Origin: Mortierella sp. BCC40632
Lineage: Eukaryota > Mortierellomycota > Mortierellomycetes > Mortierellales > Mortierellaceae
Assembly (NCBI GenBank): GCA_011634665.1
Contig: WAEK01000001.1
Span: 883,501 to 947,500, forward strand
Direction: 5' to 3'
Length of the DNA stretch: 64,000 nucleotides
A program made the translations under genes and the position numbers. This document shows positions 14,081 through 54,328 of the stretch, piece by piece; the stretch's first letter is position 1; each line of letters opens with the position of its first letter. The notes under the pieces were generated by a model. That model saw only the letters and a list, made by a program, of their open reading frames with translations, was not told where the DNA came from and did no database searches.

Positions 14081-17000
14081 TCACGTCGGGATCTGGGAAA
14101 TGTCAAAAAATTGGTCAAGTCGATGCAGCCAGGAGCACAAATCGTCCCGGCTCGATGCTTGGAGCATATACGCGTTACTAGATGTATAGATTGCAAATAC
14201 GAATTTGCGCTATTCAAGGGATATTTTTGGAGAAAAAAAATAAGTCAAGAGTCCACACGCATAAAGTCCAAAAAAAAAAGGCGCAAAAACTCTAGACAAA
14301 TCAACTTACGTTCAACATGTCTTCCAGACTCCTCTGGTAGTCAACTCGGACATGGGTCAGATTGACGACCCCCAGTTCCTCCAGTTCTGAGGAATGCGAG
14401 TAGATGAACATATACGGCCGTCGAATCACAAACCATCGCTTGACCCATACATCGTCTCGGTTTTCGGGGTAGTACAGATATCCTTGCTTGGAAACGTTGT
14501 CGCTGTAAATGGTAGAGGAATATTGTCAACAGAGACCAGATCAGTTAGCAACTCCTTTTCTTGTCCTTTCTTTTCTTTTCTTTTCTTTACAATTGTAGAT
14601 GCACCTTCCATTTTTTTTTTTTTTTTTTTTTACCTCTTTGTCACCAATTTGACCTCAGCTTGGAGCTTTGGAGATGGCCGAGGTCGCTTCAGTGCCTCGG
14701 GATCTTCAGTTTCCGGCGAAGGAGGATCTTGTCGGAGTGGAATCTCCTTGAGTTTGATCGGTTGATACTGCCACAATCGAATTATCCTCTCCAGGAGCTC
14801 TTTCTTCTCCTGTTGCTCCGGAGCAGAATCGTCATTCTCTGCAGCAGGGTCTCCATCTGATGTTACCCCATTTGGCTCTACTTTTTTCGTGTCTGTCACG
14901 GAACCTTGTTCGGGATCCTCAAGACAAGGTGGACGAGACCGTACTTTTTCCAATTCCAAGGACTGGGTTGTTCTCGCCACCAACTCTTGTTTCAAAATCA
15001 TCCCCCTTGTTTCTCTAAACCCTTTTACAAGAGACACACCTCGAGGTCTCCAGACACCCTCCAAAAGCTCTTCTCCTCGGACATACTTGCTTGCCGTGTT
15101 CAACCTCCAGAGCTCCGAGGCCTTCTTGTCCACAATCGGTCGAAGCGTCAACTTGAATAAACCACTGACTTTGCTCAGGGTTCGAGTCGACTGAAAGAAT
15201 GAAGTCAATCGATAACCTCCACGGGATTCACGGTCCTGGATCTGAACTGCAATATCAGTTCGGAAACACAATGGCTCAACACATCGTTCTGCCTCCACAA
15301 ACCAAGTCAAGGTCATCAGGACTCGTGTTCCAGATGCAGTGACCTTGTTCAGGAAACTTGATTCGTGCAAAGTACTGTCCCATGACGCATGAACCGCCAG
15401 GGCGCATGTCCCATCCGCAGGGTATTCCACCTTTTGTCCTGGGACAATACTGAGGGTCACGTCCTCACGTGGAGATGACTCTATAATTCGACCTTTGCTG
15501 TCTAATAATCGCACCCGTCCGATTTGAATGTTTGAGACACGACTCCAAGGAAATTGTCGGCCAGAGGTATGAGAGAGTGTGAGGACAATTCTGCGCTGGA
15601 GTCCATATCGAAGTTGAAACGAACCCGAGTCAACAGTCGATTTGGATAGGACCTGAACAGGGACATATTCACTCTTGGGTCCCAGTTCACAGACCTGGAT
15701 ATGGGCCAAAACATCGTGATGCCCCTCCATCGTCAACTCCTCCTCTGAACGACGCTCCGAAAAGGATGAGGATACACTTGCAACACTTTGATGATGAGTC
15801 CTTTGAGGGTGGCCCAGAAGGCTTTTTCTAAAACCGTTGCTTAATCCCTTGGGACCATGTACTGAATGTCGTTGTTTAGGTGCTTCACCACTTAAATCCT
15901 GTTCCTGCTCCTGATCCATATCCCATTTCTCCCAGGAGACAAGGGTAACAGCAGTGGCCTCTCCAAAAATCTCAATGTTCAGCGATCGCGTTTTGAGTAC
16001 CTCAAGAACAGCAGGTGTCACAAGTACGTTCAATGTCTGTGAGAATCCAAAAAAGATTGGTTCGCTCTGAAATCCTGATACTGGTTCTGTGGCAAACACC
16101 TTGTCACCGGTGATAGAGAGTGGTGCAACTTTCTTGTTAGGTCCATTGTGACCTCCTGAGAGATTGGATAGGCGGAATTGAGCGTGGACCTGGGTATAAA
16201 GCTGTTCGTTCAGTCCCTCAAGCGTTATGACCGATATCTCAAACAAAAGTTGATCACCAGCTTTCACTTGGACGTGTTGGCTATCTTCATTAGGTGTAGA
16301 CACATCTGATGCCGATGTAGAGAGGGGGACGCCGTTGTGATTCAGAGGAGTGAGAGCTACACGAGCGCGTCCGAGGACAGAGCCGGTGGTCCGACACAGG
16401 ATAGGTGCTACGCTTTCCTGGAACTGTAGTGCGACAAGACTTTGCAGGGACACCGAAGCGCCTCCAATGAATGAGTATTGACGGTCTGGATTCTCGTAAA
16501 AAGGGTCTTCCATGTTAAAGTGCTTGCGGTACTGAGGTCGGTCTGCAACAACGTTGTACAAGTTTCGCATCCGATGGAGTCGGGCTTTGAGTTTCTCGAT
16601 GGACCAGGTATACACTGAACTGTGCTTATGGTCAATGACTTTGATCGCCACAAAGGGGCGCTTTTTGATGAAGAGATCCGTATCTTCATCTGTGCTAAAC
16701 TGGGATAGACCCGACGCACTCTCCCATGCTGATTGAGGGGTTCCAAACTGTCCAGACTCGACAATCGTAAACTGGTACACGACCTGCTTGGACAATTCTC
16801 GGCTAATGACGTTGGCTTCCTTAACAAGAACAGCGTGGGTGAGGATCGTTTCCGCCATGGACACATCCCGACTCTCCCGCCACTTGTCGAGAGATTTATG
16901 GATTAGCTTGAGTTCATGGTCGGAATAAGGGGGTAAATTCTTGTCCTTAGATTTAGCTTCGCCCGATCGATGGCTGGCCAAATTGGCGATTGACATTCGC

Positions 17001-19752
17001 TTCATCTTTTCCTCGTATTCTATCCGCTGCTCCTCCAGCTTTGCTTTGAGCACATCCCTTGCCTGAGCAAGCTCTTCTGCAATCTGGGCTTTTTCAGCCA
17101 ACTGTTCCTCTATTTGTGTTTTGACGATGACCAATTCCTCGGTCTTTGTAGACACTGCAGAGAGATCCTGAATCTTGGACTCGTACTCCTCTCGTTGCTT
17201 GTTGAGGTCTTCCTGAGCCAGCCTCAACTTTTCTTTCAGCGCCAGCGCCGATGATTCGAGAGGAGGGACAAGGTTCACGCGTTCTTCGTCCTCTGCCGAT
17301 GGATGTTCACTATGAAATCTTTCGATAAGCGAGAGTCTAGAAGATCGGGATTCGGTCTCGTCATCAAAATTAGACCCACCACGACTCGTCTCGGATCGGA
17401 CGCTCTTGCGCATGTAACGGATTTTGGTTATGTTGTCAAAAAGAACATCCAGATCCTGATCTTTGAGCTGATTGATACTGGTCTCAGAGAGCATGTGGGC
17501 ATGAATCACAGCTTCCCTTCTCGCATAGTTCCAATCTACAAACTCAGACATGACGGATGCTGAGGAGATGGGTGAATCTGGTCGATCCTCGGGTCGATCC
17601 TCCTCCATACTATTGGTCGAGGTTTTGTGCTGGCCAGTCTTTGTCGTGGGTGAGGATACCCTGCTAGAAGATGCCGTGTTTTGTTGCTGCTGTAAATCCC
17701 GCTCGCGACGCACTTCTTCGGGGTGGTTAAAACGAAAGACATGGTAATCTCCCAGAATGACACGATATCCAGATCGTAGCCTTTTGGGCTTACTAATTCG
17801 CAGACCATTGACCATTGTTACAGAGGATTTGCCGGGGTATAGGGTTACAACCATGTTGTTGTTTTCAAAGTAGCAATGCTCGTCATGAATATTGGCACCC
17901 GAGAGTCGAATGTCGGCTGGCAGTGTGGATTCCAATCGCCCGACCTGAGTTTTTCCAGCCTTTAATTGATACACCAAGCATTCTGACATGAGCGGATCCT
18001 CGTTTAGGTTGACTAAATGGGGGATCTTTTTTGGTGTATGAACTCCAATGTGGCCCTTCTCGACAGAGATTCCAAGCTCCTCCAATGTCTTTTCACGCTC
18101 AAGTTGAATATCCTGAGTTTTCCGAAGCTTTTCTTCCCAGGTTTCATTGAGTTCTGCCATAATCTTTTCGGACGCCTGGACTTCATCCTGAAGCTGTTCC
18201 CGTGTGAGTGCTCTCGAGTTGCCATGGAGATCAGTGATGGTGACTAGAGTATCCGGAGGTTTATGGTCGGGACCGGATAGTGTTGGGTCATATACGCCCA
18301 GCTTTGAGCGAAGATCCAAGAGTTCCTCCTTGAGTTCGCGGATCAATTTGGCATTTGGATCCTCGTTCACGACTGCCTTATTCTTGATACGTTTCGCCTG
18401 GTCCGCATATCGAAGGGTGCTCAATGTCTCGTCAAAATTCAAGTCTGCTGGTGAGAGAGCCGCGATTATTGTTGTTTTTGAGTTTCCTCCAAGACAATCC
18501 TTAAGAAGCCACGTAAGAACCTAAAAGCAGAAAAAAAAAAAAAAAAAAATTAATAATTTCTCAAAGAGGCCGTTTTTTTTTTGAAAAAAAAAAAAGAAAA
18601 ACTTCGTGGTTTTTTCGCGAGTTACGTACCGAGTCTCTGTAAGGTACAAAAGCCTCTGCTTTCTTGACTCCTTTCTTTGTAGTTGGTGCACTGGATGCAT
18701 CGGCAAGTGCTGAAATTACCTTTCCGAGTGTTGTCAGAGACTTGTTGATGTTGGCTCCCTCTTTTAGTCGTGCGCCTGTTGCTCCTGTTGAATTTGCTCG
18801 CTCACTTCCTGCCAGATCTACAAGACTATTAAAAAAACAAAGACACATGTTTTAGATTTCCACACCATCATTAAAAGAAGGGGGGGTCCAAGCCTATGGG
18901 ACGGTCATTTCCACAACAGAAGAAAAATGTAATGCTTACCAGACTCTTGAAACCTTTTCGGTTTCTAGTTTTGTCTCAATATCATATCGTTTTTGGGTCA
19001 ACAGGACTGTGAAAACTGCATGGGAACGACTTGAAGTTTCGTTCATGTTAGTTGCTGCTACCGTACGTGCCTGTGGTAGAGAGATCAAAGAAGAAAAAAA
19101 TACAGAGCGGCGGGTCAATTAATAACAGTCGCTCCATAAGTAGCGGATAAAACACTGTTGAAAGCACAGAAATTTGGTTCAGAGTTCACTTGCCTTGTTG
19201 CCTTCGTCCATGAGATTCTCGATGTCCTGGAATGAAGTGACGATAAGTTTTGATAAATCCTCGACGTAGGGTCCCAACGATGGGTGCTCGCGCACCTTTA
19301 GATGTCCCTTGTTCTTGGGATTCAACAGGTCCCGCACACGCTCGCAATAGATTTCCATATATGAAACTTCTACACTATAACTGAGTGTTGGATCCGTGTT
19401 TGCTTCTATTCGCCGGAAGAGTTCGTTGCACGAAAGGGGTATAATACCACGGTCTTCGCCATAGCCCATCTATTCGACATTCCAGATACGATACAAGATT
19501 GTGGCACAAGGCCATGATAAGTGTCTCTGATATTATGGAAGAGTGAAGGGCGGGATCTCCGACGTAGGGATGTAGACTCTTGTTGATGTGAGCTGGTCCA
19601 ATGGACGACCTACCATTGAGTATGACTTTCCGCTTCCTGTCTGACCATCTATGGGTATTGAGAGAGTAGGAAAGTCATAGTTAGAGCTAGAGGAGAGAGA
19701 GAGGAAGAAGATACTCGGCTCCACTCCTACAGGGCGACATATCAACAAGGTC

Positions 19753-25376: not shown

Positions 25377-28159
25377 ATGGGGAACCGCCTAACCACGATT
25401 TGCTCCGGAGATCAGCACTGCTGCCGATCTAAAAGGAAGGACGCCAAGGGGAAGAAGAGTATCCCTCGCAAACACATGCCCTGCCCTACTCTGCCCATTA
25501 CTCTTTCCACAACTCTGTCCGCTGCGCCGCCTGTTGTACTATCCACTGTACCATTCTCTCGTAAAACTCGTCGACGTCCTTCTTGTAAACCCTCCAGCTC
25601 CCTCCCACGGCCTTTGTCCTCCTCAACCGAGGACCCACCTTGTCACTCGGATATCCTCTACTCACCCGACGCCTCCACACTGCAAGGCAGCCAGATCGCC
25701 TCGACACTTGAGATATCCATCGCATCCAATCACCCGCCACCGAAGGCGACCTTTGCAGGCTCCTCTACAGCCGCCGAATCGAGCCACTTCAGCCACCTCC
25801 CGCCCTCGACCCTCCAACGTCTTGAAGGATCCCCTTTCCCCTCACGCACAGGCGAGGAGGCTCCACCAACATTAACAGCAACAGATAATTTCCTCCCTAA
25901 ACCTCGTCTTCATTGTCACACGCCCAAGTTCCTTAAGCGACTCTCCTCTTCAATCAAAAAACTCTCTTTCAAGTCGACTCGCAGGCGTCGTAGCCAGATC
26001 ACAGTCATCATCATCAGCCCTGTTGAGAGCAGTGACAGCCACAGGGACAACCACAGTATCAATAACGGTAGCAGTGTGAATAGTCAGGACTTTTCATCCG
26101 ACTCGAGCACTAGTGCCAGTGCTATCATCGACACAGGCAAACGAGGAAGGGTGCCAGAGTTCCTGACCCTCGAACAGGGTCTGGCACATTTCCCGAACCC
26201 ATTCACAGAAGAAGAGTGTAGGATGCTGGCCTCAAACGAGATTCCAGCGTCCGAGATTGAAAAGCTATCGACTGGTGTGGATGCTGGAGGGATGGGGATC
26301 ATCCACGTTGCCGAGTGGCGTGGAGTGAAAGTGGCGATCAAGGAGGCCTCGGCCCAAGTCATCTCAAAAGAGGTAAGCGTGCGAGCAACAATTAGAGGGA
26401 GAGAAACAGACATGGAAGAGGCAGGTACGAGGTTCTGGCCATTGGTCGAAACCTTGAGCCATGGAGGAAGTAAGGGATGTGAAGTGGGGACTGAGGAGAG
26501 GAAGTGGAATGGGTTAGTAAAAAAAAAAAAAAAAAAAAAAAAAGTGAATTGACCAGGAATCGCGAAGTCGCGTAAGCCCTTCTACAGCTCACCTGTCGCA
26601 CAGGATGGGGGAAGGCGGAAAGGAGTGAGTTGAGTGGAGTGGGTGAGATCTCAGCTCGCGACTGGAGCCAACAATGATGCATACATCAAGCATCCCACCT
26701 CCTTTTCTCGTATCGGCTCGTGCACCATGCAAAACAGAACGCCTGTCAGAGCCTGGATCTGTTTTTAAGTTGTGCCTTTGGTTTGGATTGTCACGCCCGC
26801 CTCTCTCTCTCGCTCGCTTGCTCGATTTTTCTCGCTGTTTCTTGTACTAAGCTCCTTGGCTTCCCCCGCTCCCTTCCTTCGTCGTACTTACATCACACCG
26901 CCTGCTCCCGTCTCTCCCCGTCAGGAACCTGCCAGTCATGGAGAATGGAAATATAACCTAATCGTCATCTTTTTGCTGCACTGCCCAACCCCTTTTCTAC
27001 CTATCATAGGTCGAGATCTACAACCGCATGAAGGGTTACGAGGGTGTTGTCCAATTCTACGGAGTCACCTATCCCCCTGGACTAAACAAGCTCTGTATCG
27101 TCACCAAGTACGCCGAGAACGGCTCGCTCTCTTGGTATCTCAAGGTCGCCTTTCACAACCTCACGTGGGCTCATAAGCTCCAGCTAGCTTCCCAAATCAC
27201 TTCAGGCATTGCTAGGCTGCATCAGGAAGGCATTTATCATCGTGACCTTCACGGAGGAAATATACTAATTGATTCACAGGGAAATGCGATGCTGGCCGAC
27301 TTTGGGACGAGTACTGTTATGGAAGAGCGTGTCACTCGGAGTATGGATGAATTTAAAATCAAGCCCCTTACGACCGAGGAAGGTGTTCAGCCCAAGTTTG
27401 TCAGTGGGCGAATGTCGATCGATGACGATGAGCATGAACAGCAGCAAAAACAACAGAGCCAGGAGTCATCAGGCAAAAAAAGTCTCTGTCAAGGTCTAGA
27501 CGCGCTTACTATCCGGGCGGTGACCGAGACCAGTTTGAACAGCATCCATCTAGACGACAAAAAGTCGGACGATGAAAAGACTTATCCGCTGATTGGGGTC
27601 ATGGCCTACATTGCACCGGAACGGTTCCGAAACCCGCGGTTCTTTGACGCCCGATGTGATATCTACTCATTAGGAGTACTTCTCTGGGAGTTGACGAGTG
27701 GCCATATTGCGTTTGCAAAGATGGCACAGGATGTCCAACTAGCTGTTGCAATTCTGAATGGGAAACGGGAACAGCCAATCGAAGGCACACCGCTGGCCTA
27801 TCAAGAACTGTATGAGCAATGTTGGGAGCCAATGCCTGAGGCTCGCCCATCGTTGGATGAGATCCTCTCTACGTTAGAAACAGTGCGGGAAAGCATGTCT
27901 GAAGAGCAGCTTGCGACTACGCGAGAACGGAGCATGGCTCATGATGATACAGGTATTTGATCACGATGTAGAACAACCTTGTGTACGATTTGACCAATGT
28001 GTGTGTGTATCCTTTCCCCTCTCCCTTATCAAAGGATTTAACGCATCTATTCAACCTATTCATTGTCCCATAGGCGCAGATTTTCAAGAATCACTCAGCA
28101 TCCCCCGACCAACATCGGACTACCAAAAGTACCTAGCCTTTACACAGGACAGGTTCTAA
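25377..28159 (+). CDS. TKL-like protein kinase with acylation-type N terminus
   Basis: Exons are 25377-26372, 27010-27953 and about 28074-28159, joining in phase to about 675 residues. The protein starts MGNRLTTICSGDQHCC, fitting N-myristoylation (Gly2, Thr6) with nearby Cys for palmitoylation, so membrane attachment is likely. A Ser/Pro/Thr-rich region of about 280 residues precedes the kinase. Visible motifs are the glycine loop DAGGMGIIHVAEW, VAIK lysine, HRDLHGGN catalytic loop, LADFGTS, YIAPERF and the CWEPMPEARP ending typical of tyrosine-kinase-like kinases. About 80 residues, largely polar with a Gln-rich patch, sit between DFG and APE where the activation loop should be. The catalytic residues are all present, so it is probably active, with Ser/Thr rather than Tyr specificity expected. 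Intron 1 is long (637 bases) and carries an A run. Confidence 0.85.
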
Positions 28160-31349: not shown

Positions 31350-31484
31350 CTAATCATGTGCTTGGGGTGGTGAGGTACTGCCCGTGAGATGGTTGGTAAA
31401 TTCTCTCAACACATTCTCTAGTTCTTCCTTTCGAAGCGGTTTACTATTGCGTAAAAGAAATAGGGTTTTTGGTTAGTCCTAATG

Positions 31485-31529
<45 letters not shown>

Positions 31530-34500
31530 TGTCCACTACCCTTACCTGATATAGTCATTCATGCCGGCTGCAATGCACTTTTCGCGATCTCCAGGCATAA
31601 CACAAGCTGTCATGGCAATGATATATGGTCGATCGGGCAAACCATCCGAGAGATGCTCTCGAATATATCCTGACGTATCTAGTCCATTCATCTTGGGCAT
31701 CCAAATATCCAAAAAGATAAGGTCATACGGCACATAATGCTTCTTGTTCTCAGAAGATGGCCCCAAAAGTGGAACATGCTCCGTCGGTGACAAAGGTGCT
31801 TCACTCCGTCCAGATTCGCTTTCCAACAGACTCACTCCCGAGTCTATTTCATGGCTAGGACTGCCGCCATCACTACTGCCACTTCCGACTTGACCTATTC
31901 CAAAGGTTCGACCACCAATGTAATTCAAATCTTGAGATCGAAGCAACTCCACCTTCTTGGCAATCAACTCGACAGCCTCTAGCCCATTGTTGGCTGTGTC
32001 AGGTTCAACCCCTAACCGTGCCAACATCTTGGACACGACCTTCAAGTTCACGGGATTGTCATCCACTACGAGTACCTTGACCTTGGACAGTTTCTTGGCC
32101 GTAGAACAGGTCGCTGCTGCAACAGCTGCCATCGATGGAGATGTGTATCCTCCAGGGATACCATTGGCAGCAGAATCAGGTCCACCCAACGCACAGTTAG
32201 GCTCCGTCTTTCGGCGCGAACCGCGATGATTGGCGGATGATCGGGCCTTGGCAGCTGCCGCCCTGGCTTTCAAGCTGCTTTTGAGCGGCTTCTTGGGCTC
32301 GGTTTGAGGTTGAGCTCCAGTACCATTTTCTTCCGATATGGATTCATTGACTTCCGTGGATACAGTCGCATTCGCTGCTGCCTTGGATCGATTGGCAGCA
32401 ATATTTGGAATATCCTTGGGTAAGTTCATGGGCGGCAACGTGTCAATGGCCTGCATGAAGGCAGGTGAAGGATACGTGACAGATCGGATCGGTGCCGCAG
32501 GAAGACCAAGGTGGTCCTTGGTTGATTTCTTGGTCGATCCTTCTTCTTCATCCTCCTCATTTATAGTCTCCTCACCTGTAGCATCAGTACCATTGACTTT
32601 TCCTCCACCTACTCCGCCTGATGCATTGAGCATCGAGTCAACTGCAGCTGTCATAGCGCTATCCAGGGCCGACTCGTGCTCGTCGTCAAAGATAATCTCC
32701 ATCTCATTAGGTTTCTCAACAAGAGTCTGAAGGACCTTTGAGTGTCGGATTGGCTTGGTGAAATACACAGGCACCGCAAATAGTCCTCTGAAAGCTCGAC
32801 GACGGCCACGGCCGCCGTGCGACTGGTGATGATGAGGCAAATATCGGGAAGAGAGCTCAGCCAGAGGTGTTGTCTCATTATCGCTTCCACTACTAAAGTA
32901 TCCAGCGCGGGTAATCGAGATGGCTGGCGAAAGAGCCGGTGCAGATAATCCATCAATGCTGCTGATCGAAGGCTCGTAGCCATAGCTTGTGCCATTAAAG
33001 AGGAGATGACCACCTTGAGGGACCAACAAGTTCCCAATGGACCCTCGGCGTGAGCTTTGTTGCGTGGTCATGTGTGACTTCTCAGGAGCCATGACAGAGG
33101 CCATATGTAAATCAGATTGAGGCGCAAACGGCATTCCACCACTTGGACCAACCTCTGTACTACTAGGGTGCAGGGGCTCTTGGGAGCTAGCTGCACGAAG
33201 AGTCGTTTGACCACTGACAGAGGTGTCGTCCCCAGCATCACTGCTCGAGATTCGTTGACCGCTCCATCTTGAACCCTCACGACGAGTTCGTCCGTGGTAT
33301 GTCGTGGATACCTCTACTGCAGACTTTACATCTCTGTAGTTCTTGAAAAGGATCACCGTGATCGGCTCTGGTCCATCCAGTTGCTGTTCGCCCATATCTG
33401 TGATCGGGATCCGCTCTTTGAGCAATGAAGACCGGATAACATCCAAGAGTCCCTCTTGTGTCGAGGAAACTGAGTTGTTGAGATCCGTCTCGATGATGAG
33501 AGCCTCCATCTTGGCCCGAGGATCGTCCTGAGAGGCATTCTCCTTGTCTCCCGGGTCTGAACTCTGTAAATATGGAATCACCTCATCGCTCTTCATAATT
33601 TGAACCTTACGCATATTCCATGAGTCTGTCCGTTTCTTCCATGCCTCTCGTCCAACGGCAGAATCATCAATAATGATCAATTTCTTGTCGACCAGTTTTG
33701 ACATTCCAAATTGCTCCTCGTAGGTTTGACATCCAGCAGGGCTGTCCAGGGTCGCGTTGAAGAAGAAGGTGGAACCAATGTCAACCTTACTCTTGACCCA
33801 CATACTGCCGCCCATCATTTCACTCAGTCGTTTGCTGATCGCCAATCCAAGTCCTGTGCCCCCATATTCTCGAGTAGTACTTTCGTCCACCTGAGAGAAG
33901 CTTGTAAATAGTTTGTCGAACCGATCTGAAGGAATGCCGACTCCCGTATCCTTGACTGCAAACAAAAGCTTAACAGGCTTTGTATTGAGTGGCGCCTGGA
34001 TACCGTTGATGAGTTGACCAGGGTCGATCTTGGCACCATTCGGTCCGGTGACGTGTTCCTCAATCGTCTTGAGACCTGCTGGACCAGCTATGTTGGCATG
34101 GCTTGGTCTCGAGACCCCCTCTGGGCGACGCTTTGAAGAGGACTGATGCGCAGATGAAGATGTGTTGGATCTCAATACAGGCGTAGGTGGCATCAACCTT
34201 GTTGGATCGGCCTTGTAGCCCCTTTCAGGTTCGCCATCACCTTCAAACTTGACACCATGAAGCGGTTCCAGAGCGACAGAGACATGGATTGTTCCTTCCT
34301 TTGTGAACTTGACAGCATTGCTCATGAGATTCAACAGGATCTGTCGGAGTCGGGTCACGTCGCCCATGATCTCGACTGGACATTTCCGATCGATCTCATA
34401 TATAAGACTCAATTTCTTTGTTGTGGCCTGGGCGCTGATTAGATTAACAGCGGACTCAATAACAAAGCTGAGATCTAACAATCGGTTCTCAAGCTTCAGC

Positions 34501-36659
34501 TTTCCAGACTCTATTTTTGAAAAGTCAAGAATATCGTCGATCACTGTCATCAGTTGATTCCCAGAAGACTCGATCGTCTCGGCACACTCGGCTAGTTCTG
34601 GGTTCAACTTTGAATCCAGCAGGATACGTGACATGCCAATAACGGCATTCATTGGAGTTCTAACAGACAAACAAACAAACAAAAAAGGAAGATATTAAAA
34701 GCGGGGATCAAAAATGACGTACCCGAGCGCACCAAAAGAGGAGAGACATGAACCAGCCTTACCTAATCTCATGAGACATATTAGCCAAAAAGTTAGACTT
34801 GGCTGTCGCTGCCGCCTCTGCGCCCTCCTTTGCGTCCTGAAGATCTGCCAAGAGTTGGTGGGTTCTAGCACGCTCCTCTTCCAACTCGACTGTACGCGTC
34901 TGCAGGTTTTTGGTTCGATCTCGGACAAGCTCCTCCATATCATTTCCATACTTTTCCAACATGGCTGCCATACTACTAATAAAGTCGTTTGAGTTGTATG
35001 GGTTGATCTCGTTGATCCTTGCCAACATGGCCGTGAAATGGGGTCGTTGTGCGGGATCGCCAGAGAGACAAGTTGTAATAAGCAGGTTCATCAATTCAAT
35101 AATTTCTCTGTCTTCCTGGGTCAGGGATGGTGTCTCGGGGTTGACAAGTGTGGGTCGAAGGCCATTGTCCTTGATAAGATCCAACAAACTTGGGTTATCT
35201 CCATATTCATTGTATGGAAGGCGGCGAGTCAAAATCTCGTTAAAGATAACTCCAGCACTGAGTTAAAAAAAAAAAAAAAAAAGGTTAGTACAAAGGGTCT
35301 CAATTTCCTTTTAGGGCCAAGTTTGCTTCCAAGAAGACAAAAGTTTTCATACCTGTAAAGATCCCCGCGCTGACTTCCGATCGCCTCAAAATCACCATTC
35401 CTGCCATTGACTAGACACTCGGGTGCAACCCAAAGCATGCGCTGCCAATCAGATCCACCCATACCTTGCTCGAATTCAGAGTTCTCCATCATGTCGGAGA
35501 TAGCGCTCGCGGTCGTTGCGGGCGTCATCCCTGCAGAGCCTGGGATCCGAGGAGAACAGGATCGGAGTATGTTCTGACCAGCCAGGTTCAATCGCGGATC
35601 CTCCGCAGAAACATTAGCCATCTCAGTTCCCGAGACCAGTTTTTCGTCATTCAGGTCGGGGCTAAGTCTGTTGCCTAATAAGAAAACAGCACGGCTCGAT
35701 TGGCCATCTGCCTTGGGCGAGAACACGTTTGAACTATCAGACATCTCGATCGTCGAGTCATTTCCTGTGATTCCAAATTCTTCTTGATGACTGCCGACGC
35801 CTCCACTGGAGTTACTGCCTCTGTAGACTGGGCGACTAAAGCTGGTTTGTCGCTGAGGGAGCGGTGGGTGATTTGGAATGGGAGAATTAATATCGTTAGA
35901 TTGCTGAGACGAATTAGGATGATTTAGCTGCAACGTCGGCACCTGAAGCTCAACCTCATCTTGTTGTGAACGGTAGAGTCGATCAAGACCATAGCCCGCA
36001 ATCTTGAGTTCCCATCTTGAAGAAATCAGACAGTTCCTGCTGGTAAGACGACCGTGGTGTCCAATCTTGGACATGTGCAAGAATTCCATGCCTCGGCAAA
36101 GGTCTTGCATGAACGAAAACTTGAAGAGCCAGGTCAGTTTGTGATCTGTGTTGGCCAATACAGACTGAAGGGAGCCCTTGGGGACATATTCTAGAGCAAA
36201 TGAAGAAGAGTTGTTGGTGTTAGCTAGGGGACACCTTTTACTTCATGATGATTAGTGTTTTTCAGTCATTTTGGCTCCTGCAACTTCTTACCTGTTACTA
36301 CGCAAATGTTTGGAAGAGAGAGGCAGACGCCAATAAACTCGACCAACTTGGGATGTCTCAGCTCCCTAGTGAAGTAGATCGATTGTCATATTAGTGATAT
36401 ATGATAGTAAAGCAATGTGTTGCACGCTCTCATGGATTTTTGAGAACAAACCAAGCGTCATCCTACCTCATGTTAAAGATCTCCTTCCGGAAATCACAGT
36501 TGACTTGAACCTTTTTAGATCCAATCTTTTTGATATAAACAGGCATGCTTCGCCATGTTCCTAAAAGCGAAGATCCACGGCTCATCATGATGGAACACTG
36601 ACTATTGGTCACAGTCTGTTGGATAGCCCTAGAAGTTGTGCTATATGCAAATAAGGATC

Positions 36660-36699
<40 letters not shown>

Positions 36700-39600
36700 T
36701 GGTGTAAATAAACGCATCTGCAAAAGAGATCCTTTCATGTAAGGAAAATATCTGAAAGCACACTTACGAGGATGCAGATCGACCACTAAAGCTCGGGTGC
36801 TGCAAGGATCCGCTTCGGTTCGTGCCTACACCCGTACTACTTGTACTGCCTGGGTTACCCAAACTGGCAATAATCGAGCTTCGTTGAAGTGGTGAATCCG
36901 ATCTATCCATCACTTCAATATCCGGTACTTGAGATCGTGTAGACATCAGAGCGGGCATAAGTGATGGCATCGGCGTTGATGCTGGCCCAGGTCGGGCGGA
37001 CATTGCCACTGATGGATCTATTTTTTCGTTCGAACCTGTCGATACCTCAGATCCAGTCATCTCTTCTGTGGGCACACTCTCATTCTTGGACCTTCTCTTA
37101 AATGACTTTCGTAACATAGCGGCAGGCAGGGAAAGACCGGAGGCAATGGCTGCTCCTACTCCTCCATTTCCTCCATTTCCTCCCTCTCCTCCTCCCCCTT
37201 CATTACCATTTCCTCCTCTAAGTCCACTGGCATCATCGCCTCCGTCAGGGTCATCATTTCGAGGAACGTTGTAAGGCGAGGTCGGTTCTCCACTGATACC
37301 ACTGTACAGCAATTTCGCAAGATCCAGTTGCCAAGAATCATCGTTTAGCTTCTCGTTCAATGAACGCTTTCTTCGGACCCACCAGACTACAAAACCACAA
37401 GCTGCAAATGCCGCCAGACTGATCGGAATGATAATCGCTAACAAGGTCGAAACGGATACTACGAGTTCAAAAGATCCATGAAAAACAACAACAACAAACA
37501 AATAAACAAATAGACGGGGTTAGTGTTCGTTAATACTTGGACACATCAGGCTCTTTACACCTTCGTGATATACAAAAAAAAGGTACACTCTTGTATTACC
37601 ATTGTTGGATGTCCGACAAATATCTGCTGTGCAGAGCATACATTGGGACTGTCCATAACCATCCGTTCCTTGTCCTTCAGGGCAATTGGTACAATGAGCC
37701 GCATCCGTTTGGTTGCTAACCGTCCCAACGCCACATCTCGCGCAGACACTCTGTAGCATCACATGCCCATTGATATCCAAACAAAGTCTGGTTTTGTAGT
37801 GCGATGGATCTTGAGGATAGAGAGTCGAGTTGTGATGGCTACCATCGTCAGAGTTGTCTGCATCCGGTAGCATGTCCATACTGTCGAGAATTTGACTGTT
37901 ATAGAGAACCCTGGTTCCTGGCTCACATGCATGGTTGATCGGAACAAAGCCCGTGTTAAAGATCTGAGCGTAGAGTTTAGGCCGATTAGGAAACATCATC
38001 CGGATCGACATGCTCAAGATCGAATGGAATCCTTGTGTAAACTGTTGCGGGTCCAAGAGTCCTGTTACTTGATCAGTCAAGGCAAGCGAGTACAGAGCCT
38101 TCTGAGGTACACCTAAGACAAAAACCCCGGGAGCATACGAGTAACCTGTGGGTCTAGTCCCTGCCGATGCTGAAACGGTTGGCTTTCGCGATTTAGGCAC
38201 CCCGTCCGAGTTGTAGCTTATTACGCCGCTTGCCTTCAATTTCTTAAAGTACGGATAGAGTTGATCCACTACATTATATAGTGGCAAAGACGTGCATAGG
38301 ATGGAGTCAAAAGGAAGCGCCCCATTAGGCGTGAATGCCCTCAAAATCGGGTTGTTTTCTGGCGTGATGTTATCCGAAAGAGGTGGTGCTGATGAATAGC
38401 CGCTGCTAGATCCAGAGGATTGAGCCCCCGCTCCCGCTCCTGGGTTGGGTTTGTGAGGGTCAATTATGCTGGAAACATTACTTCCCTGCAGATCAGAGGC
38501 ATTGATGGGAATTGCCATCATCATATCCTCGAGTCTGCCCACCTTGGCTACTCCATAGATTTGAGATAAAAATGCATGTAGCTGTGTACAGTGCATGACT
38601 TGCCACCATGGACCATTTTCCTCAATCAGGCAAAGGGGCACACCAAATCCACTGCCTAGAATCTGAGTAGCAAAGACAGATCCAATGTTTTCGTCACTAG
38701 GACCGAGGAAGGTAACTCTTTGTGGGAGGGCAGTCCAGTTCGAGATGGTGCCCAGACCAGTGACGAGCGTATCCGGTCCTAAAACAGGGCTGCCTAGCAC
38801 TACTTCGTACTGGTTCCTGTTCGCAAGCGAAATGATCACTCCTTGCACGTTATTATATGGACCATATACTGAAGGCCCATCGTAGACCACACTTGGAGTT
38901 GATTGATTGTTGACAGGGATATTCCGATAGATTTGCTCTACTTCAGCCATGGATGTGGCCGAGAGAGTGTCCCATCCAAGGATAGTTGCCGCTTTGATAA
39001 TACCTCCCAAGGCTTCATTCCATCGGGTTTGCTCTAGTGGAATGCTCTTGTTCAAGACAATGGCCGTCTTTCTTTGTCGGACAAAATCTGCAAAGTTGGA
39101 GAACCGCTCTCTTTCGATCTCGTCATCGACGTTGGTGATGTTGATTACTGAGGGACCTGTCCAAAGCACGTCCTGGATTAACTTTTGCTTGGTCGAGATC
39201 TGGAGATAGAGCTCGATTACGGGTAGTGCTCCCTGAAGATATGGAGCCTGAGAGATAGCGACGACTACATTACGCGCCTTGAGGCCCTTGATAACATTGT
39301 CATCGACATCGAAAGAGCCAACCCAGTAGCTTCCATTCCGGTCTGGCGCAGAGACGGGCGGACTCTTGAGTGTCGATACTCGGGTGATAAGAGGAATGTT
39401 GCCTGTCGCTAGTGAGACCACAGCATCAACGGAGGTATGACGATCGAGATACTGAGAAAGGATGGCAAAATTTTCGGGGGTATCGCTGTTGATCTCATCA
39501 ATGAACAATGTCTTGTTGTTGGCAATGGTTTCTGGGATCTTTAGACCTCGACTGTTGAAAGCCCTTAAAATTCCTGAGCAACGGTCCGCGAGCGACTGAA

Positions 39601-41142
39601 CATTCCGGCTTGGACTGATACATACAAAATCGCGAGCGCCTAAGAGTTATCAGTTGACCCGTAGATTCAGTCATTTTGTTAGTTCATGCCTGAAGTATAG
39701 AGAGAGGACAAATTCCGACCATTGATTATTATTATTTTCATTTAGCATGCGCAAACCTTTGTCAAATAGTGCATTTCCCATCTGTTCTCCGGCATCAAGC
39801 TCATCCTGCATCACTGCAAGAACACCTAGCTGCCTTGCACTCTGTTGACCAACATTCATGACCACAAGAGGCATTCCAGGATGCTCACGTTGGACCTGAA
39901 TGACGGCACTAGCAATTTCTGCGTTGGGTATCGTGAGAAAGAGGCCATCATAAAGTCCTGAGTCGGCAGCACTAATAATACTTTTGGCCATGCGCGAGCT
40001 GTCAAAAGTGTTGTTCACAGGTCCGATCCAGTCCATTAATACGCCTGTTAGGTTGGCGCCATCAACTGCGCCCAGCTGAATTCCTTCCCAGAAGGGACCC
40101 ACGCCTTGGTGCCAAATGTAGAAGGAGAACAAAAAAAAAAGATGAGTATATTCCTGATCAGTATGTTGTGACACCACGCCTTCCCTTCTCTGTCCTTTAG
40201 TTGCAGGTAGAGGACTGAAAATAATGGTTTACCATGTGAAATTCCCGCAAGGCGAATACGGCCATTTGTAGACACTTCGCTCCGTCTGCCATTGAAGCCC
40301 GTCAAGGAATCAGATTCACAGAGAGGAAGGCTCGATAAATTCATGGCGACCGTATTCGTGAATTCATTCGCTGTGCTGATAAAAGCGTTGGGCAGGTTTG
40401 CTCTGCTGCCGCTAGTTAACTGGAGAGGAATCGCCTCGGTTGACCTTAAGAGAACTAGCATCACCCAGAACAAAGCCGACAAGAGAGAGAGCCAACCATG
40501 GGGTTTCGAGTGAAGAGAGGTAGGTGGCTGAGACAAGGACAAAGGTGATTCGGTTGAGGAGGAGCAGAAGTGTTTCCGTGGAGAAGGCTCGGCCAACTTT
40601 CCCCAGTTCCAGCCTGGGGAGAAGGAGGATTGACGAGAAGTACGATATGTGGATGGTGGCTGTCTTTGTCCTGTTGTTGAAATTGTTGTTGTTACTGTAG
40701 CTGAAGGGGATGTTGGCGCTCGACACTCAGTGACTTCTCCGTGATCTTTCAGAGTTATATTTGGTGGCGGTAGTATGGAATCGTGCAGGCACGGACGACC
40801 CCGTGTCTGTCTTGGAGCATTCGATGCAGAGCAGCAGCCAGGGGTTAAAAAGGGGAGCCGTAGCTGGGTGGCGACGTGGTCCATGTGGTTGGCGCTACGA
40901 GAGACTTTGTGTGTAGGCTGTTGTTGTTGTTGATGTCGATGTCCCCTCTTTGCTCCAGCGATGCAGGGAGTTGCCGAGTGACACAGACTCTGCAGAAGAG
41001 ATAACAAGGAAGGGTGATCGTGGGTCCGGACACATATCCTGGTATAGTGGGGCCTCGTAAGAGAGGACAGGGCGTCGACGGCTGTCGTAGGATGGATATG
41101 TTTGGCAGGCGGAGAGGACCGCATTCTGGAATGTGTTCGCAT
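31350..41142 (-). CDS. receptor hybrid histidine kinase with receptor-guanylyl-cyclase-like chassis
   Basis: Ten exons join to about 2,900 residues. A hydrophobic signal or anchor (HGWLSLLSALFWVMLVLLRS) follows a poorly conserved N terminus, so the start (41142) is uncertain. The ectodomain begins as a sugar-type periplasmic-binding fold (RIRLAGISHGVGPFWEGIQL, DGLFLTIPNAEIASAVIQ), probably with a second copy. A Cys-rich stalk (VCARCGVGTVSNQ, CTNCPEGQG) and one span (LLAIIIPISLAAFAACGFVV) follow. Inside are a kinase-homology domain (LRHPKLVEFIGVC, HHGRLTSRNCLI, LKIAGYGL, MLWVAPECL, GDLYSAGVIFNEI), a coiled coil (MEELVRDRTKNLQ), HisKA (NMSHEIRTPMNAVIGMS), HATPase (NLMSNAVKFT, DTGVGIP, GGTGLGLAIS), a degenerate receiver and a complete C-terminal receiver (VLVVDDNPVNLK, LIFLDIWMPKM, SKPL). 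The kinase-homology domain lacks HRD Asp and DFG and is presumably a pseudokinase. The histidine kinase and last receiver look active. Confidence 0.88.
31487..31529. repeat. T27/A16 palindromic run in the last intron
   Basis: A T run passes directly into an A run inside the last intron of the receptor kinase gene. It forms a self-complementary element able to fold back on itself. Confidence 0.8.
36663..36698. repeat. T29/A7 palindromic run in an intron
   Basis: A second T-then-A junction lies in the intron that separates the transmembrane exon from the kinase-homology exons of the receptor gene. Confidence 0.8.
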
Positions 41143-41404
41143 CAGGCAGCGGTTGTGGAAGAGAGTGTTGGTTCGCGAGGATCAATTCGCAGGCCAGAAG
41201 AGACCGAGGCAGCAGAGGTGAGAGTGGGCGATTTGGGTGAGTTCGGTCTATTGATCGTTGTCGTCCCTATGCAGATCAACAAATAGAGTGGACGAGAAGA
41301 TGCATCAGTTGAAGGGGTCCACGAGGTCACTGGTGTGTGCATGTGTCTTCCAGGAGGAGAAGGTGAGAAAGGCGAGAGGTAAAAGATCGGAGACGAGAGA
41401 TAGA

Positions 41405-42435: not shown

Positions 42436-42522
42436 GAGGAGGAAGAAGAGGAGGAGGAGGAGGAGGAGGAGGAGGAGGAGGAGGAGGAGGAGGAGGAGGA
42501 GGAGGAGGAGGAGGAGGAGGAG
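42436..42522. repeat. (GGA)n trinucleotide tract
   Basis: About 28 GGA units form a pure purine tract of roughly 85 bases. The three plus frames read poly-Glu, poly-Gly and poly-Arg, and the complement reads poly-Leu or poly-Pro. This explains several apparent ORFs. Perfect mirror-repeat purine tracts can form triplex (H-DNA) structures. Confidence 0.9.
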
Positions 42523-52364: not shown

Positions 52365-54328
52365 ATGAGCGTAAGGCCCTTTTTGCCACTCGACTATCCT
52401 TCCAAAAAAAAAAAAAAAAAAAAAAAACAATGCTGTCTACAGTTCGTTCTAACCAGATTCCCACCATGTCAATCAACTCCATCTCCTTAGGCCGACGAAT
52501 ACAAGGCACAAGGAAACAAGGCTTTTTTGGCCAAGGACTACGATAACGCCATTGAGCTCTTCTCCAAGGCCATCGAACTTGACTCAGCAAATCACGTCCT
52601 CTACTCAAACCGCTCTGCCTGCTACGCCTCCTTGAAGAACTACGAAAAGGCCCTGGAGGATGGTGAGAAGACTGTTCAGCTGAAGAGTGACTGGGCTAAG
52701 GGCTACGGTCGTAAGGCTGCGGCTCTTTATGGACTTGGTCGATTCCCAGAGGCCAACGATGTATATGAGGATGGATTGAAGTTGGAGCCAACCAACGCCC
52801 AGTTGCAAAAGGGTCTCCAGGACACTCAGCAGGCCATGGAAAAGGGTAACTATCTCTTTTTTGGAGAATCTTGAGTATCTGTGATGACTGGTTTTGTTCT
52901 CAAAAAGAGCATGTTTATTGATGCTCGCCAAAACTAATGCATCAACAATACGTTTCCCTTGATGGTTGGATAGAGGCTTCCACTGGATTGGGCAAGATCT
53001 TTGGACCTGACGTTTTCACCAGGATTGCTTCCAACCCCAAGCTGGCACCCATGTTGTCCCAGCCCGATGTGATGGAGAAGGTCAAGGCCATTCAGGCGAA
53101 CCCCAACAACCTCAACCAGTACATGCAGGATCCCCGCATCATGACCTTGGTCATGGGATTGCTTGGTTTGGATGGCTCCGTCGCCGGTGGTGCTGGCCCC
53201 ATGGAGGAGGACCCTATTACCCCCATCCCTACTTCTTCACCTTCTTCGACCCCTGCTCCCAAGAAGGAGGAGCCCAAGCCTGAGCCAAAGGAGGAACCCA
53301 TGGAGGTCGAGGAGCCTACCGAGGAGGAATTGAAGAAGAAGGAGGCGTTGAAGGTCAAGGACTTGGGTAATGCTAGCTACAAGGCTCGCAAGTTTGACGA
53401 GGCATTGGAGCACTATTCCAAGGCCTGGGAACTGGACCCCACCAACATCTCGGTCTTGACCAACAAGGCCGCTGTTTACTTTGAGATGGGCAAGTTTGAT
53501 GAGTGCATCAAGACATGCGAGGAGGCGATCGAAGTCGGACGTGAGCACCGCGCCGACTTCAAGTTGATTGCTAAGGCTCTTGGAAGAATCGGTAACGCAT
53601 ATTCGAAGCAGAACATGTTGCCCGAGGCCATCAAGTACTATGGCAAGTCGTTGGCTGAGCACCGCACACCTGATATCCTTGCCAAGCTCAAGGAGGCTGA
53701 AAAGGCCAAGGCCAAGGCAGATAAAGATGCGTACAAGGATGTAAACCTTTCTGCCGAGGCTCGTGAGCGTGGTAATGCTTTGTTCAAGAAGAGCGACTTT
53801 GCAGGAGCTGTCAAGGAGTACACCGAGGCTATTAAGCGTGATGACACGGACCCTCGTGCCTTCTCTAACCGTGCTGCTTGCTACACGAAATTGATGGCGA
53901 TCAACGAGGCATTGAAGGACTGCGAGACCTGCATTGCCTTGGACCCCAACTTTGTGAAGGGATACATCCGCAAGGCTGCTATTCAATTCTTGAAGAAGGA
54001 GTTCGATGAGTGCTTGGAGACCTGCGAGAAGGCCAAGGAAGTGGATGTTGACAAGAAGAATGCTACTGAGATTGACCAGCAGATCGCCAAGGTGTATGCA
54101 GAGATGAGCCGCGGCCCCTCTCGTCGTGAGGGTGAGACTGAGGAGGAGGCGATGAAGAGGGCACAGCAGGACCCTGAGATCCAGCGCATTATCGGTGACC
54201 CTGCCATGCGTAGCATTTTGCAGCAAATGCAGGAGGATCCCAAGGCTGCACAGGACCATATGAAGAACCCCAAGGTCGCAGCCAACATTCGTAAACTCGT
54301 TGCGGCTGGTATTATCCGTCTCGGTTAA
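52365..54328 (+). CDS. STI1: Hsp70-Hsp90 organising co-chaperone Sti1/Hop
   Basis: Sti1 holds Hsp70 and Hsp90 together during client transfer in the cytosol. The first coding exon is only 6 bases (ATGAGC, 52365-52370), followed by an intron with an A run. Exon 2 (52491-52845) and exon 3 (52974-54328) follow in phase. The protein reads MSADEYKAQGNKAFLAKDYD, matching the Sti1 start, and is about 571 residues. Domains in order are TPR1 (NHVLYSNRSACYASL), DP1 (NPKLAPMLSQPDVMEKVKAI), a Pro/Glu-rich linker, TPR2A (GNASYKARKFDEALEHYSKA), TPR2B (ERGNALFKKSDFAGAVKEYT) and DP2 (DPEIQRIIGDPAMRSILQQM), ending IIRLG. All family modules are present. The promoter has a sense-strand CT tract; no clear heat-shock element array was seen. 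Confidence 0.95.

Follow-up and report, generated by a model that had tools for sequence, protein, structure and literature searches.

A predicted Mortierella hybrid histidine kinase carrying a pseudokinase and signalling helix of receptor guanylyl cyclase type

We analysed a 64-kb stretch of the genome of Mortierella sp. BCC40632 (C1:883501-947500, hereafter the window; the genome comprises 49.9 Mb in 62 contigs), which carries on its minus strand a gene predicted to encode a receptor-like hybrid histidine kinase (Table 1). Its nine introns are all of the GT-AG type, measure 95-141 nucleotides and leave a single open frame of 2839 amino acids in the splice model. In this model translation starts at the ATG at position 40884, the frame upstream being open as far as a stop at 41184; position 41142, where an earlier sequence-only reading of the locus began the gene, is a possible alternative start. 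From the N- to the C-terminus, the protein is composed of a signal-like helix, a Peripla_BP_4 domain, a Cys-rich stalk, a membrane span, a pseudokinase, a coiled coil, and HisKA, HATPase and receiver domains. The place and order of these parts, proposed by the sequence-only reading, are confirmed for the predicted gene model by splicing, Pfam, hydropathy and motif analyses. Hydropathy detected a strong span at amino acids 1014-1042 and a weaker one at 128-152; two further stretches just above the threshold (654-672 and 1307-1327) both lie within folded domains.

Table 1. Predicted parts of the receptor gene, in window coordinates (aa, amino acids).
Feature	Position	Strand	Evidence
Whole coding region, 10 exons, 2839 aa	31350..40884	(-)	Scripted splice model
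Exons 1-5, coding order	40233-40884, 39757-40104, 37600-39639, 36768-37458, 36467-36640	(-)	Splice model
Exons 6-10, coding order	36292-36365, 35353-36190, 34763-35257, 31546-34659, 31350-31443	(-)	Splice model
Signal peptide or signal anchor, aa 128-152	40429..40503	(-)	Hydropathy up to 1.73
Peripla_BP_4, aa 220-474, spans one intron	39218..40099	(-)	Pfam E 2.4e-12
Second ectodomain stretch, about aa 600-940	37820..38842	(-)	Weak local similarity to C32 copy
Cys-rich stalk, aa 953-1008	37616..37783	(-)	Seven Cys, spacing as in C32 copy
Membrane span, aa 1014-1042, first codon split by an intron	37373..37458	(-)	Hydropathy up to 2.54
Receptor guanylyl cyclase-type kinase homology domain, aa about 1263-1690	35005..36585	(-)	Pfam, PDB search, tree, diagnostic columns
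Signalling helix (S-helix) with RT signature, aa about 1700-1745	34840..34977	(-)	EELVRDRT; alignment with NPR-A
HisKA, H-box SHEIRTPMN, aa 1758-1823, spans one intron	34503..34803	(-)	Pfam E 3.6e-21
HATPase_c, N, G1 and G2 boxes, aa about 1870-2072	33756..34364	(-)	Pfam E 4e-24; motifs
Receiver with long inserted loop, aa about 2632-2821	31407..32078	(-)	Pfam Response_reg E 9.4e-20; motifs

Pfam detects the kinase homology domain as two stretches (PK_Tyr_Ser-Thr, E value 1.5e-32; best stretch at amino acids 1274-1404), and an inserted stretch is present at about amino acids 1406-1571. The domain retains the beta-3 Lys (VYIK) and the alpha-C Glu and shows HGR instead of HRD and GYG instead of DFG; because the HRD and DFG aspartates are lost, it is predicted not to phosphorylate substrates. 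The span is followed by RRKR and then DDSWQLD. The local features on which the sequence-only reading had based a resemblance to animal receptor guanylyl cyclases, namely the catalytic loop HGRLTSRNCL, LWVAPE and the helix EELVRDRT, were all located. This helix bears the RT signature of S-helices, and the alignment with NPR-A extends to NPR-A's ERT. The C-terminal part has the phosphorylatable His of HisKA, the HATPase boxes and the receiver D, D and K expected of a hybrid histidine kinase, the receiver keeping DD, D, T and K by motif reading. By Pfam the protein lacks the C-terminal class III cyclase domain of receptor guanylyl cyclases, and a full hybrid histidine kinase stands in its place, as the sequence-only reading had suggested.

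Searched with the pseudokinase, the genome yielded 24 matches, five in the window gene, two in a second copy on contig C32 and 17 in other kinases. In this copy (C32:115001-117751), one intronless frame encodes the end of the ectodomain, the stalk, the span, the pseudokinase, the helix/coiled coil and the H-box as far as SHEI-R, after which an intron occurs at the same position and in the same phase as in the window gene. Five of the six aligned pieces are 43-57% identical to the window protein, the piece running from the ectodomain end to just past the span is 22% identical, and DDSWQLD is common to both proteins. In the C32 pseudokinase Arg replaces the beta-3 Lys (VLVR), HRD reads HGD and DFG reads GYG; we infer that neither pseudokinase is an active protein kinase, against which the HRD Asp retained in the C32 copy speaks mildly. 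As far as it is readable, the second gene has the same predicted layout.

Searches of the PDB placed the pseudokinase close to receptor guanylyl cyclases. For the window copy, the best 60 of 1612 matches include NPR-A (172.7 bits), JAK1 (103.2 bits; entry 7t6f, titled tyrosine-protein kinase, which we take to be JAK1), TYK2 (88.6 bits), GC-C (88.1 bits) and EGFR (80.5 bits over two stretches), and the best single-stretch chain outside the receptor cyclases is roco4 (78.6 bits). The C32 pseudokinase matched NPR-A at 137.1 bits and GC-C at 88.3 bits over two stretches, the next being MLKL at 57 bits. As a yardstick, human GC-C scored 180.2 bits with NPR-A, little more than the window copy does, and 77.8 bits with the next chain, CTR1. 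By comparison, one of the genome's ordinary kinases reached 77-80 bits with JAK1, TNNI3K and CTR1, and no receptor cyclase is found among the best 60 of its 2598 PDB matches.

The sequence-only reading had proposed a tree of the kinase homology domain with cyclase receptors and other kinases. In such a tree, built on the kinase core with the helix excluded (19 rows, including the animal receptor cyclases NPR-A and GC-C), the two fungal and the two animal domains form a clade with a support of 98/98, within which the fungal pair (100/97) is sister to the animal pair (96/90). Removal of four long rows left the clade at 99/98. Approximately unbiased (AU) tests rejected trees in which the fungal pair was constrained to group with ten kinases from its own genome (p 0.0055) or with JAK1 (p 0.0016). 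Eight diagnostic columns are shared by all four fungal and animal domains and by at most one of the 15 other kinases, the maximum among 105 control pairs being three. When a profile of the two animal receptors was compared with a profile of the 15 other kinases, the window domain scored 147.3 versus 133.4 bits and the C32 domain 131.3 versus 107.6 bits in favour of the receptor-cyclase profile, and all 15 other kinases, each left out in turn, scored higher with the other-kinase profile.

Several points weigh against this assignment. For the window copy GC-C falls below JAK1 and TYK2, whose totals sum two kinase domains. Animal receptor cyclases are represented in the tree by no more than two sequences, and it includes no choanozoan and no other fungal one. 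In the AU tests, grouping of the fungal pair with CTR1 was rejected only at p 0.03, and grouping with MLKL (p 0.0755) was not rejected. Four columns match half or more of the other kinases but differ from the animal pair. The domains win by modest profile margins of 14 and 24 bits, that of NPR-A itself being only 6 bits. The C32 copy can be read only from the ectodomain end on, the first 3501 bases of the stretch being N. Pairwise scores, tree, diagnostic columns and profiles nevertheless support a pseudokinase and helix of receptor guanylyl cyclase type. The grouping is with receptor cyclases and not with tyrosine kinase-like (TKL) or tyrosine kinase (TK) groups, which places the domain in the receptor guanylyl cyclase (RGC) kinase group as far as two animal rows and the MLKL constraint allow. 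In NPR-A and GC-C the span, the kinase homology domain and the RT signalling helix follow in the same order as in the fungal proteins, and the pseudokinases belong to one clade. From sequence comparisons, we consider it supported that the pseudokinase and signalling helix resemble those of receptor guanylyl cyclases by descent and the outer half by layout only; a span alone cannot show descent.

How such a module came to be in a fungus can be read in two ways. Tentatively, and with somewhat less than even confidence, we suggest that the RGC kinase group predates animals and that an output swap on a span-pseudokinase-helix transducer, one that can still be seen in this fungus, gave rise to the animal receptor guanylyl cyclases. 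An output-neutral transducer would then have existed in the ancestor of animals and fungi; the fungal line would have coupled it to a phosphorelay and the animal line to a guanylyl cyclase, a scenario we hold just as tentatively. Acquisition of the pseudokinase-helix module by gene transfer from an animal or another holozoan, which would also be compatible with a receptor of cyclase type, is the less likely course: passages of PMC1420674 and PMC3019232 term the receptor cyclase kinase group metazoan-specific, which would suit a transfer, but the fungal and animal pairs are sisters with neither nested in the other (among two animal rows only), and a recent arrival is spoken against because the kinase cores of the two fungal copies are 52% identical. 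A bacterial or viral source was set aside on one scan each. The pattern-based scan of prokaryote contigs found no relative above 29% identity, with 11 of 38 stretches confirmed at 21-29%, and in the scan of viral contigs none of the 18 stretches was confirmed.

Kinship with receptor cyclases could also be mimicked if an ordinary fungal TKL kinase had decayed in place and come to look cyclase-like through the same pseudokinase residue losses. In favour of this, the AU test did not reject the pseudokinase MLKL as sister (p 0.0755), MLKL is the next-best relative of the C32 copy behind the receptor cyclases, and four columns side with the other kinases against the animal pair. We regard this decay as improbable, in view of the rejected groupings with the ten own kinases and JAK1, of a control pseudokinase pair (JAK1 JH2/MLKL) that has three diagnostic columns against eight, and of a likeness to NPR-A that continues through the RT helix. 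Chance resemblance among pseudokinases is likewise not favoured by the AU tests and the diagnostic columns, although the grouping with MLKL was not formally rejected.

Fungal hybrid histidine kinases of group X deserve separate mention. Chk1-type proteins have, as the window protein, a kinase-related domain ahead of HisKA (PMC4965123, PMC9069115), and the receptor could be a divergent member of that group. According to passages of PMC9069115, Chk1 additionally has AAA_16 and GAF domains, both of which are absent from the window protein by Pfam, and the window protein has an ectodomain and a span; on this domain content alone membership was rejected, in line with the difference drawn by the sequence-only reading, and we find it hardly credible. 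Least probable of all is a wrong splice model joining a receptor gene to a neighbouring kinase gene: the model was made from sequence and has one of its nine introns between the span and the pseudokinase, but frame and phase agree at all nine junctions, and since the C32 copy carries ectodomain end, span and pseudokinase in one exon with an uninterrupted frame, the layout is not a splicing artefact.

The ectodomain has another affinity. Peripla_BP_4 scores 47.4 bits against a Pfam cut-off of 35.1, which places the domain in this family, and its best PDB relative is the CUT2 sugar-binding protein 4ru1 (E value 1.9e-11); no ANP receptor is present among the 16 PDB sequences matched at E 0.1. By Pfam and PDB search the protein does not have the ANF_receptor ectodomain of receptor guanylyl cyclases, and the ectodomain is predicted to be of the bacterial sugar-binding type. 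Coming from another branch, it is not evidence for a shared chassis. The receptor-cyclase layout proposed by the sequence-only reading, and with it its interpretation as a whole, is partly supported: the pseudokinase and helix agree by scores, tree, columns and profiles, whereas animal receptor guanylyl cyclases combine ANF_receptor with a cyclase and the window protein Peripla_BP_4 with a hybrid histidine kinase. Six ANF_receptor-type matches, one under the cut-off, occur elsewhere in the genome (L066-L071 on C4, C7, C2 and C1), none of them near any genome match of the pseudokinase search.

The second ectodomain stretch is possibly a degenerate second periplasmic-binding domain. Its local resemblance to the C32 copy is weak, and the part of this similarity that reaches significance comes from the stalk; Pfam detects no convincing domain in it outside the stalk, and an AlphaFold model of amino acids 530-960 from the single sequence has a mean predicted local distance difference test score of 33.2. 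The seven Cys of the stalk are spaced 13, 3, 14, 3, 14 and 3, identically in the window and C32 copies, and the stalk matches NCD3G under the family cut-off (E value 0.0017).

Class III cyclases are represented in the genome by a single match, with a leucine-rich repeat-PP2C-cyclase layout that we take to be that of fungal adenylyl cyclase. Two loci with an Hpt domain are present. Among 15 HisKA regions, the kinase profile is positive in two, the window gene and the C32 copy; it detects no kinase domain in the 13 regions around 14 other HisKA matches, although a profile may miss divergent ones. Of nine other HisKA regions examined with Pfam in nine frames, two contain HAMP arrays, four contain GAF and/or PAS and one contains part of HisKA-HATPase, while two gave no match. 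The hybrid kinases L061 and L062 have long tandem HAMP arrays of 16 and 13 HAMP stretches, a trait of fungal group III. Two other hybrid histidine kinases, L055 and L056 (C9:1401500-1424500), lie 14 kb apart with equal HisKA scores of 39.9 bits and are perhaps a recent tandem copy; GAF and PAS are present in L055 and in the similar L054 (C4).

Around the receptor gene, the window contains ordinary neighbours: a kinesin gene with FHA, KIF1B and DUF3694 domains (14633-18520, minus strand) and a STI1/HOP-like tetratricopeptide repeat gene (52922-54325, plus strand). A part of an ordinary protein kinase with intact HRD and DFG lies at 27010-27957 (plus strand) and pairs in the tree with own_L029, another kinase from the same genome. 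A GGA/CCT microsatellite is present upstream of the receptor gene (42450-42520).

The best NCBIfam matches of two pieces of the C32 copy, far under the curated cut-offs, are hybrid kinases of the TorS/BarA type, and the alignment with the TorS model runs across the signalling helix of this copy. TorS/BarA-type kinases have no protein-kinase domain, unlike the window and C32 proteins, and any binding protein that takes part in bacterial systems of this kind is a chain of its own. With fungal hybrid histidine kinases the window protein has the HisKA, HATPase_c and receiver motifs in common, but a sensor half like its own was not found in the passages on these kinases, whose groups are named up to XIX (PMC8510515). 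Outside group VI, most fungal histidine kinases are not predicted at the cell surface (PMC4965123).

In other sources, comprising titles, abstract openings and passages from the open-licence literature (in part the best entries of longer lists), the architecture was not found described. The RGC group is called mainly conserved in Metazoa (PMC8449880), is excepted from the kinase groups thought to be early eukaryotic (PMC6611643) or is merely named as a class (PMC3591445, PMC5052723). Eight early-diverging fungi have 'unprecedented' membrane hybrid kinases according to PMC5285503; such proteins may already be included, unnamed, in this set and in the survey by Kabbara 2019, to which PMC6944256 refers. 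Passages of PMC8778642 describe fungal guanylate cyclases as undescribed, yet list many matches to that family in Glomeromycotina, under transporter classes, and likewise many to a mixed-lineage-kinase-like family. We suspect that these are matches to the kinase domain. The predicted receptor is real and unusual and, as far as this literature shows, new as a combination.

Taken together, the protein is probably a single-pass fungal surface receptor, a hybrid histidine kinase with a cyclase-type pseudokinase and a relay in the position of the cyclase. Outside the cell, the periplasmic-binding domain, of the sugar-binding branch, would close on a small polar ligand. The dimer would rearrange via the span, the pseudokinase and the helix, and inside, by analogy with animal receptor cyclases, the kinase homology domain would pass the change to the signalling coiled coil. 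The coiled coil would hold a HisKA-HATPase dimer where animals have the cyclase dimer, and autophosphorylation on His would be followed by transfer of the phosphate to the protein's own receiver and then to a histidine phosphotransfer (HPt) protein. According to passages of PMC1592074, Sln1 and receptor cyclases are both altered when the S-helix is lost or its RT residues are changed, a finding that would suit one transducer with two outputs.

If the kinship is true, the gene and its copy contradict the description of the RGC group as metazoan-specific (PMC1420674, PMC3019232) and the 2006 statement that animal receptor cyclases alone have a Ser/Thr kinase domain followed by a signalling helix (PMC1592074). 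According to passages of PMC6733946, no receptor-kinase architectures were found in fungi apart from hybrid histidine kinases; the window gene falls within this exception, but with a far more receptor-like build. The receptor would also offer a testable case of signal transfer by a pseudokinase: a module that acts on a cyclase in animals is expected to act on a histidine kinase in this fungus, so that chimeras could reveal how much of the mechanism holds generally.

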